From assembly GCA_027315365.1 (NCBI GenBank), contig DAHUYF010000209.1, positions 1 through 42,331 of the forward strand: a stretch of 42,331 nt of DNA. Direction: 5' to 3'. Origin of the DNA: Rhodospirillales bacterium (GTDB lineage Bacteria; Pseudomonadota; Alphaproteobacteria; ATCC43930; CGMCC-115725). The notes under the pieces were generated by a model. The model worked only from the letters and a program-made list of their open reading frames with translations, made no database searches and was not told the DNA's origin. Positions 17,163 to 20,144 of this stretch are shown here, piece by piece. The number at the start of each line of letters is the position of its first letter. Position 1 is the stretch's first letter. A program made the position numbers and the translations under genes.

Positions 17163-17864
17163 CTACGCCGCGTCGTGAAAGATGACGCCGAGCGTCAGGC
17201 GCTCGCCCGAGCGCAGGCGGCTGACGCCGTGGCGCAGGCTGGCGCGGTAGACGCCGCGCGCGCCGCGCACCGGGCGGTGACGGACGGCGAAGATCACCGC
17301 CTCGCCCTGGCCGAGCCGCACCACCTCGGCCTTCGACTGGCGGCGCGGCCGCTGCTCGACCAGCAGGAACTCGCCGCCCTCGAATGCGCCGGGATCGCTC
17401 AGCAGCACCGTCATCTGCAGCGGGAAGACGCGCTCGCCGTAGAGATCCTGATGCAGGCAATTGTAGTCGCCGGCGCCGTATTTGAGCAGCAGCGGCGTCG
17501 GCCGCGTCTGGCCGGCGGCACGGCACTCGGCCAGATAGGCCGCGAGCGTCGGCGGAAAGCGTCCTGCCTCGCCCAGCATCTCGCGCCAGCGATCGGCGAT
17601 CGGCGCCAGATGCGGATATGCGCCCTGGCGCAGCGCCTCGACCGCGTCGGCCAGCGGGTAGCGGAAATATTTGTATTCGCCTTGCCCGAAGCCGTGGCGC
17701 GCCATGACCACGCGGCTGCGGAACGCCGCCTCCTCGGCATAGAGCGCCGCCAGCTCGCGGCACGCCGCCGGCGACAGCACGCCAGGCGCCGTGGCATAGC
17801 CCTGCGCGTCGAGCGCCGCGGCGATGGCCGCCCAGTCGAGGCGGGAAAGATCGGCCCTGCTCAT
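17163..17864 (-). CDS. 2-oxoglutarate/Fe(II)-dependent oxygenase
   Basis: The 233-residue protein is a 2OG-Fe(II) dioxygenase of the prolyl-4-hydroxylase-like superfamily. The iron facial triad is H138 and D140 in LHQDLYGE with H212 in SLRHGVSRL, and the 2-oxoglutarate salt-bridge residue is R222 in SGERLTLGVIFHD. The strand FPLQMTVLLSD and the GGEFLLVEQ turn are typical of the double-stranded beta-helix. It hydroxylates or demethylates an unknown substrate; the N-terminal helical part (1-110) resembles a family annotated simply as 2OG-Fe(II) oxygenase. It is divergent from the SBP56 gene across about 200 bases holding a tandem repeat. Confidence 0.85.
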   Translation of the reverse strand: MSRADLSRLDWAAIAAALDAQGYATAPGVLSPAACRELAALYAEEAAFRSRVVMARHGFGQGEYKYFRYPLADAVEALRQGAYPHLAPIADRWREMLGEAGRFPPTLAAYLAECRAAGQTRPTPLLLKYGAGDYNCLHQDLYGERVFPLQMTVLLSDPGAFEGGEFLLVEQRPRRQSKAEVVRLGQGEAVIFAVRHRPVRGARGVYRASLRHGVSRLRSGERLTLGVIFHDAA

Positions 17865-17946: not shown

Positions 17947-18069
17947 GCGGGGCGCGCGGTAAGGCGATATCCTTTTCGCCGGCACCACGTGTTGGAAATG
18001 CAGCACTAGGGGCACACCAGCCGTCGGACAAGAGCTGCTCTGCGCCTCGACACACAGGGAGGCATGCCG

Positions 18070-19470
18070 ATGACGACGAGGCCCGATCCGACCTTCCACG
18101 CATCGCCGAAGCTTGCGATGGAAGCTCCGCCGGAGAACTTCGCTTACACGCTGCTGCTTAGCCCGGATTTTTCCCAGCCCGACGCGCTGGCGGTGATCGA
18201 CGTGAAGCGCGGCTCGCCGCGCTTCGGTCAGATCGTCCACACCGTGACGATGCCCTACAAGGGCGACGAGTTCCACCATTTCGGCTGGAACGCCTGCTCC
18301 TCGGCGTTGTCGCCGCTCACCGGCCACGCCTTCTTCGAGCGGCGCTATCTGATCATCCCCGGCATCCGCTCCTCGCGCATCTATATCGTGGACACCAAGC
18401 CGGACCCCACCCAGGCGAGGATCCACAAGATCATCGAGCCCGAAGAGATCTTCAAGAAGACCGGCTATTCGCGGCCGCATACCGTCCATTGCGGGCCGGA
18501 AGGGATTTACGTCAGCACGCTGGGCGGCGGCGGCAAGGACGGCACCGACGGACCGCCCGGCATCTTCATCATGGACTGCGAGACCTTCGACATTCTCGGA
18601 CGCTGGGAGATCGACCGCGGGCCGCAGACGCTGCATTATGACTTCTGGTGGAACCTGCCGCGCAACTACATGGTGACGAGCGAGTGGGCGCTGCCGCCGC
18701 AATTCGAGAACGGCATCGTGCCGGAGGATCTGCTCTCGAACAAATACGGCCATCGCATCCACTTCTGGGATCTCGCGGCCCGGCGCAACGCGCAGACCAT
18801 CGATCTCGGCGCCAACCACCAGATGGCGCTCGAGGTGCGGCCGGCGCACGATCCGGTTCGCGAATACGGCTTTCTCGGCGTGGTGGTCGACACGACCAAC
18901 CTCGAAGGCTCGATCTGGACCTGGTGGCGCGAGGGCGGCACGTTCCGCATCGAGAAGACGGCGACGATCCCGCCCGAGCCGGCGCCCAAGGACCGGCTGC
19001 CGCCGCTGCTGCAGGGGTTCGGCGCCGTGCCGCCGCTGGTGACCGACATCGATCTCTCGCTGGATGACCGCTTCCTCTACGTCGCCTGCTGGGGAACCGG
19101 CGAGATGCGCCAATACGACGTCAGCGACCCCCGGAAGCCGACGCTCGCCGGCTCGGTCCGCCTCGGCGGCATCGCCCGCCGCACGCCCCACCCGGGCGGA
19201 AAGGCCTATGCCGGCGGTCCGCAGATGGTCGAGATCAGCCGCGACGGCAAGCGGGTCTACTGGACCAACTCGCTCTACTCGACCTGGGACGACCAGTTCT
19301 ATCCCGACGGCGTGCCCGGCACCGAGGTCATGGCGCATGCCGGCCCGAATGGCGGCCTCGCACTCGCCGAGGATTACTGCGTGAGCTTCCCCGAGGGCTA
19401 CCGGGCGCATCAGATCCGGCTCGAGGGCGGCGACTGCTCGACGGATTCTTTCTGCTACCCCTCGGTTTGA
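18070..19470 (+). CDS. Selenium-binding protein SBP56 / methanethiol oxidase family
   Basis: The 466-residue protein belongs to the SELENBP1/SBP56 family. Members form a seven-bladed beta-propeller, and characterised ones (MtoX, SELENBP1) oxidise methanethiol to formaldehyde, H2S and H2O2 using copper. Family motifs include FHHFGWNACSSALSP (the conserved Cys region), RYLIIPGIRSSRIYI, HTVHCGPEGIYVSTLGG, YDFWWNLPRNYMVTSEW and RVYWTNSLYSTWDDQFYPDG. The repeated blade sequences and the full length match the family. No signal peptide is visible, so unlike Hyphomicrobium MtoX this form looks cytosolic. GGGAGG at 18057-18062 favours ATG 18070 over ATG 18064, which is too close. Its TGA overlaps the TTG start of the next gene. 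Confidence 0.92.
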   Translation: MTTRPDPTFHASPKLAMEAPPENFAYTLLLSPDFSQPDALAVIDVKRGSPRFGQIVHTVTMPYKGDEFHHFGWNACSSALSPLTGHAFFERRYLIIPGIRSSRIYIVDTKPDPTQARIHKIIEPEEIFKKTGYSRPHTVHCGPEGIYVSTLGGGGKDGTDGPPGIFIMDCETFDILGRWEIDRGPQTLHYDFWWNLPRNYMVTSEWALPPQFENGIVPEDLLSNKYGHRIHFWDLAARRNAQTIDLGANHQMALEVRPAHDPVREYGFLGVVVDTTNLEGSIWTWWREGGTFRIEKTATIPPEPAPKDRLPPLLQGFGAVPPLVTDIDLSLDDRFLYVACWGTGEMRQYDVSDPRKPTLAGSVRLGGIARRTPHPGGKAYAGGPQMVEISRDGKRVYWTNSLYSTWDDQFYPDGVPGTEVMAHAGPNGGLALAEDYCVSFPEGYRAHQIRLEGGDCSTDSFCYPSV

Positions 19471-20144
19471 TCGCGAGCGGAGCGGATTGGACGCCGGCCG
19501 GGCTCTGGCTGGCGGTAGTCGCGAGCGGCCTCTATCACGGGGTGAACCCCGGGATGGGATGGCCGCTTGCTGTTTCCGCCGCGCTGATGGAACGGCGCTC
19601 GCGCGCGCTCCTGGGCGCACTGTGGCCACTCGCGCTCGGCCATCTGCTGGCGATCCTCCTGGTGATCCTTCCCTTCGCGCTGCTGGTCGCCCTGGTCGAC
19701 TGGCAGCAGCAGATCCGCATCGGCGCCAGCCTGCTGGTCATCGCCTTCGGCATCTTCCGGCTCGTCGACCGGCGCCATCCGCGGGCGCTGGCGCGGATAC
19801 CGCCGGCGCAGCTCGGACTCTGGTCCTTCGCCGTGGCGATCGCCCACGGCGCGGGATTGATGCTGGTGCCGATCTATCTCGGGCTCTGCCGGACCGCCGA
19901 TCTCGCCGCCGGCCACGCGGCGGCCGGCGCGCTCATCGATGCCGATCTCGGCATGGCGGTCCTGGTCTCCGTCGTCCACGCCGTCGCGATGATCGCCGCC
20001 GGCGGGGTCTTCGCGTGGCTGGTCTATCGCCATCTGGGGCTCGGGGCCGTGTCGCGCAGCTGGTTCAATCTGGAGGCGATCTGGGCGCTCAGCCTCATGC
20101 TGGTGGGCGCCGTCTCGCTCTCGATCGCCCTCGCGGGCCGCTGA
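19467..20144 (+). CDS. Six-helix membrane protein coupled to the SBP56 gene
   Basis: I do not recognise a functionally described family. The 225-residue product has about six membrane helices (roughly 12-30, 48-76, 85-100, 117-140, 160-186 and 200-222). Four histidines sit in or at the helices: H24 in LYHGVNPGMGW, H59 in LGHLLA, H127 in AHGAGLM and H171 in VVHAVAM. Buried histidines and the Asn-Pro motif suggest a metal or cofactor site. It starts with TTG at 19467 and overlaps the SBP56 stop by four bases (TTGA), so its translation is coupled to that gene. A role in supplying copper to, or moving the substrate or product of, the SBP56 enzyme is inference from context only. Confidence 0.75.
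   Translation: MIASGADWTPAGLWLAVVASGLYHGVNPGMGWPLAVSAALMERRSRALLGALWPLALGHLLAILLVILPFALLVALVDWQQQIRIGASLLVIAFGIFRLVDRRHPRALARIPPAQLGLWSFAVAIAHGAGLMLVPIYLGLCRTADLAAGHAAAGALIDADLGMAVLVSVVHAVAMIAAGGVFAWLVYRHLGLGAVSRSWFNLEAIWALSLMLVGAVSLSIALAGR

Follow-up and report, generated by a model that had tools for sequence, protein, structure and literature searches.

The window analysed here, a stretch of 42,331 nucleotides from a Rhodospirillales bacterium, carries on its forward strand two genes that overlap by a few nucleotides. The upstream gene (18070..19470, + strand; start ATG at 18070, stop TGA at 19468-19470, with a second in-frame ATG upstream at 18064) encodes an SBP56-family protein (PF05694) of 466 residues, apparently cytosolic. 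The downstream gene (19467..20144, + strand) encodes a membrane protein of 225 residues and six predicted helices, a member of an unnamed family and a putative metal permease with a remote likeness to NicO. The TTG start of the membrane gene (19467-19469) and the SBP56 stop form a 4-nt overlap in the sequence (19467..19470, + strand), and both open reading frames lie where a sequence-only reading of this DNA had placed them. The genome yielded a single copy of each gene. Divergent to SBP56 is a PF09859 oxygenase gene (17163-17864, − strand), which did not turn up at any of the 106 loci of relatives in which it was sought.

The upstream protein matches PF05694 over residues 4-462 with E=1.4e-173 (578 bits against a cut-off of 34). 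It carries the copper/activity-type residues H69, H70, H137, H140, D191 and E255, all six of which are kept in 51 of 51 partner-linked SBP56 proteins, and H447 is also conserved. According to the accessible portion of a study of human SELENBP1 (PMC10362175), activity depends on the corresponding HH, HxxH, Asp and Glu residues, and mutation of four of these six lowered the copper content; the human residues were placed on bacterial SBP56 by motif and order, not by aligning the human sequence. The sequence-only reading had labelled the protein a methanethiol oxidase, a name that the profiles do not support: against the NCBIfam methanethiol-oxidase equivalog NF052453 the window SBP56 scores 95.6 bits, below the cut-off of 650, and judged by these profiles it is a member of the SBP56 family but not MtoX proper. 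No signal sequence was seen by eye at its N-terminus or in five N-termini of linked SBP56 that were inspected, unlike one MtoX-like copy (L164), on which a clear signal sequence is present; the linked SBP56 proteins look cytosolic.

In a tree of 58 SBP56 rows, 51 of them partner-linked, the linked copies and the partnerless L130 form one group at a fork with support of 92/98, and outside this group lie two MtoX-like copies, one of them L164, together with a branch comprising L122-L125. L130 (from genome G421), although on the partner's side of the tree, stands without the membrane gene, and one of its six residues is changed to Arg. The L122-L125 branch, which looks most similar to human SELENBP1 at the N-terminus, has 2Fe-2S ferredoxin and CoA-binding genes as neighbours and no membrane gene where this was checked; these neighbours were assigned by Pfam for L156 and by eye for L154 (both genes) and L157 (the CoA-binding gene). 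Behind the SBP56 genes of L154, L156, L157 and L356, all of this SELENBP1-like branch, come genes for 2Fe-2S ferredoxin, for CoA-binding proteins or for both, the arrangement in L356, a Phaeobacter inhibens plasmid, being similar according to its annotation. This plasmid additionally has rhodanese and MBL-fold genes near SBP56, and the surroundings there look like a different thiol/persulfide module.

The association of the membrane gene with SBP56 is very regular. A scan of GTDB genome contigs confirmed 356 relatives of the membrane protein, and in all 80 kept loci (the best 80 of the 356) SBP56 lies immediately upstream on the same strand. Within a phylum sample of 398 genomes the membrane profile was found in 31, with the membrane gene directly behind SBP56 in 28 and not in three; counted from the side of the enzyme, with seven weak fragment rows (18-25 bits) excluded, 28 of 33 SBP56 copies above 500 bits had the membrane gene, and none of four low-scoring copies (127-150 bits, termed MtoX-like) did. 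A class sample of 385 genomes gave 15 membrane-profile matches, 14 of them behind SBP56, the fifteenth (L351) being rejected as a short spurious partial match in the murG region; five of the matching genomes are common to the phylum sample and one more to the family sample, so that the samples overlap in part. In the family sample (39 genomes, nine carriers) eight of the carriers have an SBP56-linked copy, and the ninth, G002 (L009/L010), holds decayed membrane-gene fragments beside which no SBP56 was found. The membrane gene also occurs in 58 plasmid records, with SBP56 directly upstream in 53, and these pairs span Alpha- and Betaproteobacteria, Deinococcus, Gemmatirosa and Nonomuraea, thus including Deinococcota, Gemmatimonadota and Actinomycetota; among the plasmid SBP56 rows listed (60 of 69), 53 have the membrane gene and seven lack it.

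The five plasmid exceptions are three Variovorax and two Agrobacterium larrymoorei records, of which two and one, respectively, were inspected. In the A. larrymoorei plasmid (L352, 2675-2971) an ISL3 transposase gene is followed by an SBP56 remnant (residues 368-466) and then by the membrane gene. Damage to SBP56 was seen elsewhere as well: in Loktanella (L354, 3501-4343) the gene is cut short beside an insertion sequence, leaving residues 1-282, with no membrane gene found in the fetched stretch, and in L073 it is split into two pieces.

When the five window genes flanking the pair were sought in the loci of 106 relatives, four were found in none and ketopantoate reductase in one. Because the flanking genes are reshuffled to this extent, neutral synteny does not explain the linkage, and the pair travels as a unit. 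Distances among SBP56 proteins correlate with those among their partners (r=0.957 over 51 pairs, a value reached in none of 2000 permutations), a correlation to which shared ancestry contributes. No third conserved gene beside the pair was apparent in the annotated plasmid contexts, and relatives of the membrane protein gave no match in phages and none that was confirmed among viral contigs. A record titled Mycobacterium sp. KBS0706 (L046) carries a pair 77% (membrane protein) and 87% (SBP56) identical to that of the window and grouping with Alpha- and Betaproteobacteria; the record may be misnamed, or a transfer may have occurred. The sequence-only reading had taken the coupling as a usual sign of a functional pair and had named homologues rarely beside SBP56 among the observations that would speak against it. 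The neighbour counts show the opposite (all of the best 80, 28 of 31 carriers in the phylum sample, 53 of 58 plasmid records), and judging from this gene-order evidence the two genes almost certainly form a functional pair. No description of the membrane partner was recognised among the titles and abstract beginnings covered by our literature search, a coverage that takes in few subscription journals.

The tightness of the junction varies. Among the best 80 of the 356 relatives, 29 offer a start codon that would give the identical 4-nt overlap, and 75 have one between -20 and +10 nt relative to the SBP56 stop. Intergenic stretches of 103-186 nt separate the two genes in some Bradyrhizobium and Afipia (L016, L020, L021), where the spacers look repeat-like by eye, and gaps reach 163 nt in remoter relatives. 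The overlap itself is not essential, given the spacers in Bradyrhizobium and Afipia, and the prevailing near-overlap leads us to expect co-expression of the two genes.

The membrane protein has six hydrophobic segments in its hydropathy profile. Positive charge is concentrated in loops 1, 3 and 5, which average 2.2, 4.1 and 2.4 K+R per row, whereas loops 2 and 4 average 0.5 and 0.7, and hydropathy and charge together suggest a topology of six helices with both termini outside (N-out/C-out). Four histidines are predicted to lie inside helices: H24 in TM1 (motif HGxNPxMGW; codon 19536..19538, + strand), H59 in TM2 (motif GH; codon 19641..19643, + strand), H127 in TM4 (motif HGAGLMLxP; codon 19845..19847, + strand) and H171 in TM5 (motif VH; codon 19977..19979, + strand). 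The six helices and the four histidines within them that had been read from the window sequence are thus borne out, and alignment finds the histidines to be conserved: all four are invariant in 17 of 17, 51 of 51 and 40 of 40 aligned rows, the last of these alignments being a diverse one from four phyla with 27-77% identity to the window protein. Sixteen residues are invariant over these 40 rows (G21, H24, G25, P28, G31, W32, A35, G58, H59, W119, S120, H127, G128, G130, P135 and H171).

Conventional searches did not place the family. Neither Pfam-A nor NCBIfam gave the window protein a match at E up to 1; with the limit relaxed to E=5, a scan of the 40 members returned only scattered weak matches, with no family in more than four members and the best match (E 7.5e-4) in one; and the 40-row profile found no sequence relatives in the PDB. 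CadD, matched once among the 40 members (E=0.008), was not relied on. AlphaFold models built from close relatives (51 and 62 rows) were poor, with pLDDT of 61 and 56 and no usable fold, and Foldseek with VIA-align on the first of them yielded nothing usable. An internal 3+3 repeat was sought and not detected, the reversed control scoring higher. The predicted outer loop between TM4 and TM5 contains HHHHMM in Gemmatirosa (L182), three His in Deinococcus (L172) and two in Nonomuraea (L171); a metal-catching role for this loop, possible in these three, was dropped since the histidines are absent from many rows.

Profile-profile comparison does bring out one remote kinship. Against a profile built from NicO proteins of the same phylum, the membrane family scored 39.1 in hhalign, with a probability of 69%, and 36.8 with gappy columns removed. 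None of 200 block-shuffled profiles reached the real score (mean 16.0, maximum 25.0), and reversed controls against the NicO sets gave at most 16.3. In this alignment the first and the last His of the NicO motif HAxDADH are matched by H24 and Met30, and the His of GH by H59, NicO histidines which we take to have a metal role; among the 40 rows the first His and the GH His are present in all, and the last His of HAxDADH is replaced by Met30 in most. For scale, pairs of families that we assume to be distant relatives gave 27.2 (NicO-LysE), 25.4 (NicO-DsbD_2) and 35.3 (RcnA-like-DsbD_2) in the same set-up. Kinship with HupE/UreJ, LysE or CopD was not supported, at whole-profile scores of only 13.6-19.9, nor was kinship with DsbD_2 at 26.2-27.0, where three of 200 shuffles reached 26.2. 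The search, for which a match to an unrelated transporter family had been anticipated as an unfavourable outcome, therefore returned no such family, NicO metal permeases being the sole remote kinship detected. The NicO link is weakened because the similarity is confined to the first half of the protein, with no signal in the second; because the scores drop to 30.2 and 18.2 (probabilities of 17% and 0.5%) when the NicO subfamilies are taken apart; and because no match to Pfam NicO (PF03824, cut-off 27.7 bits) was listed for any of the 40 members. We regard the membrane protein as a probable remote relative of the NicO nickel/cobalt permeases, as the first-half profile score suggests. To our knowledge NicO proteins carry nickel or cobalt, and not copper.

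Pairing is not exclusive to SBP56, contrary to what the sequence-only reading might have led one to expect, for a minority of the membrane genes are paired with DUF899 (PF05988). A DUF899 gene lies upstream in all five examined membrane-gene loci that have neither SBP56 nor a remnant of it, namely the three exceptions of the phylum sample (G208, G417 and G322) and two Variovorax plasmids. In four of these five copies, G322 being the exception, the membrane match ends before the last helix, and in the four aligned DUF899-linked rows of the five Met30 is replaced by Thr, Ser or Asn. DUF899 itself is over the cut-off in 64 of the 398 genomes, three of them with a membrane copy beside it, so that it is mostly partnerless. 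The DUF899 protein gave one weak AhpC-TSA match, and PF05988 presumably belongs to the thioredoxin clan; we know of no requirement of DUF899 for copper. With two unrelated soluble partners, a metal cargo is easier to square with the data than a substrate of a single enzyme. Small beta-propeller-like and HTH-type proteins precede the DUF899-membrane pair in L151 (7253-7939), L152 (6414-7109) and L180 (3530-4192), which places a beta-propeller once again near the membrane gene.

Another kind of exchange is seen in two Streptomyces plasmids, where an SBP56 gene whose product is 51% identical stands without the membrane gene and the next open reading frame encodes a ZIP-like protein with H-x3-E-G motifs, which we take to be of ZIP type, in two of its helices. 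The Pfam Zip family (PF02535) matches the two proteins below its cut-off (E=0.0011 and 0.0076), and a stop divides the gene in one of the two plasmids. The ZIP-like gene was found in six Streptomyces records, behind a whole SBP56 in two and behind an SBP56 fragment in one; of the other three, one has it beside a cation diffusion facilitator gene, another 2.4-3 kb from heavy-metal regulator/binding genes, and the third is unannotated. ZIP permeases are importer-type proteins of a different family, and here a ZIP-like gene occupies the same position behind SBP56 as the membrane gene.

The sequence-only reading had offered three roles for the membrane protein, a copper supplier, a redox partner and a thiol/sulfide transporter. 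The metal supplier fits best, given the NicO kinship and the invariant histidines, and the other two are kept as lower-rated alternatives. The protein is probably a metal permease, a reading based on the four invariant intramembrane histidines, the NicO score over its controls and the ZIP-like replacement. The need for copper in the cytosol is argued by the six residues kept in all 51 linked SBP56 proteins and by the lack of a signal sequence in the five N-termini. With modest confidence, we consider the best overall explanation to be a dedicated permease for a metal, probably copper, that metallates cytosolic SBP56. Import of copper for SBP56 in particular has, we estimate, slightly less than an even chance. 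Two points that count against the overall explanation are that DUF899 is not known to need copper and that Met30 is replaced in the DUF899-linked rows aligned.

Let us consider how such a self-contained two-gene module might work. The first gene would supply a cytosolic SBP56 beta-propeller with a His/Asp/Glu set that, in the available part of the human SELENBP1 report, the human enzyme requires to be active and, for some of the residues, to bind copper (PMC10362175). The second gene, probably translated from the same mRNA, would supply a six-helix, NicO-related permease that moves the metal cofactor, most likely copper, inward across the inner membrane by way of an intramembrane site made of the four histidines and Met30. 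The metal would then be released next to newly made SBP56, and the metallated enzyme would oxidise small thiols. We infer that a metal is transported, that it is copper, that it moves inward and passes to SBP56, and that the substrate is a thiol.

The four invariant histidines, spread over four helices, might instead bind haem, or hold a quinone between them, and take electrons from SBP56 or DUF899, both of which look like redox-type proteins. Human SELENBP1 makes H2O2, as far as the accessible portion of PMC10362175 goes, and there is then no evident need for an acceptor in the membrane; the matches listed for the 40 members include no cytochrome family, and the NicO and ZIP-like links favour metal, so that we consider a redox partner rather unlikely. 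Unlikely, too, is a thiol or sulfur transporter serving SBP56, bringing substrate in or taking sulfide or sulfane sulfur out. The pairing with an enzyme is tight, and transporters commonly lie beside catabolic enzymes; methanethiol, however, passes membranes unaided, a different protein, DUF899, is also paired, and invariant histidines suit metal better. H2S likewise passes membranes unaided according to the part of PMC10936201 that was available, which also describes sulfane sulfur as not membrane-permeant, and an exporter of the latter would not be idle.

Two further alternatives appear much less probable. The expected co-expression would also suit a protein that anchors or stabilises SBP56 at the membrane with no transport at all, yet 16 invariant residues, four bilayer-buried histidines among them, would be superfluous for anchoring, and DUF899 is an unrelated partner; this seems most improbable to us. 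RcnA-type NicO proteins are exporters, and RcnA-like rows are included in the NicO profile, which speaks for export of excess metal rather than import. Against it stand the placement with an enzyme that needs copper, the importer-type ZIP-like gene in its place in Streptomyces, and the fact that no copper-resistance gene is found among the five window neighbours scanned, and we regard export as very unlikely.

Almost no free copper is thought to be present in the bacterial cytosol, which raises the question of how copper reaches a cytosolic enzyme such as SBP56 or its human relative SELENBP1. The favoured metal-permease reading, if true, could explain how cytosolic SBP56 obtains its copper. 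It would also provide a candidate function for a membrane family that lacks annotation, and the same reasoning suggests that some DUF899 proteins may need this cargo as well. As the membrane gene is fixed behind the SBP56 gene in four phyla, SBP56 metallation is directly testable. More tentatively, these proteins might be a previously undescribed group of NicO-related His/Met importers that bring in copper solely for one or two cytosolic proteins (SBP56 and DUF899). They would then be for copper what dedicated nickel permeases are for nickel, and would provide the missing route for metallating a cytosolic copper thiol oxidase in bacteria, with a ZIP-like protein in their place in some Streptomyces.

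Finally, the module needs to be set against the systems already described. NicO/NiCoT/RcnA proteins (PF03824) are alike in having histidines of HAxDADH and GH where H24 and H59 align, and the score lies far beyond those of the shuffled and reversed controls; the window family differs in having no Pfam match, Met30 at the third signature His and a second half in which no similarity was detected. DUF899, unrelated to SBP56, is the other protein found to be encoded upstream of this membrane family. Human SELENBP1, in the accessible part of PMC10362175, is a cytosolic copper-dependent thiol oxidase with the same HH, HxxH, Asp and Glu, whereas the most SELENBP1-like bacterial branch (L122-L125) has ferredoxin/CoA-binding neighbours and not the membrane gene. 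For secreted MtoX of Hyphomicrobium and Ruegeria, copper has been proposed to come via SCO1/SenC encoded next door, as stated in the available portion of PMC5739008; the mtoX-SCO1/SenC-mauG operon likewise co-encodes an SBP56-family enzyme and a proposed copper-delivery protein. In contrast to secreted MtoX, the window SBP56 looks cytosolic and is paired with an integral membrane protein, and SCO1 and MauG are absent among the five window neighbours scanned. A periplasmic chaperone, as MtoX has, could presumably not be used by a cytosolic SBP56, and the membrane gene occupies the place that the SCO1/SenC chaperone gene holds beside an SBP56-family enzyme.
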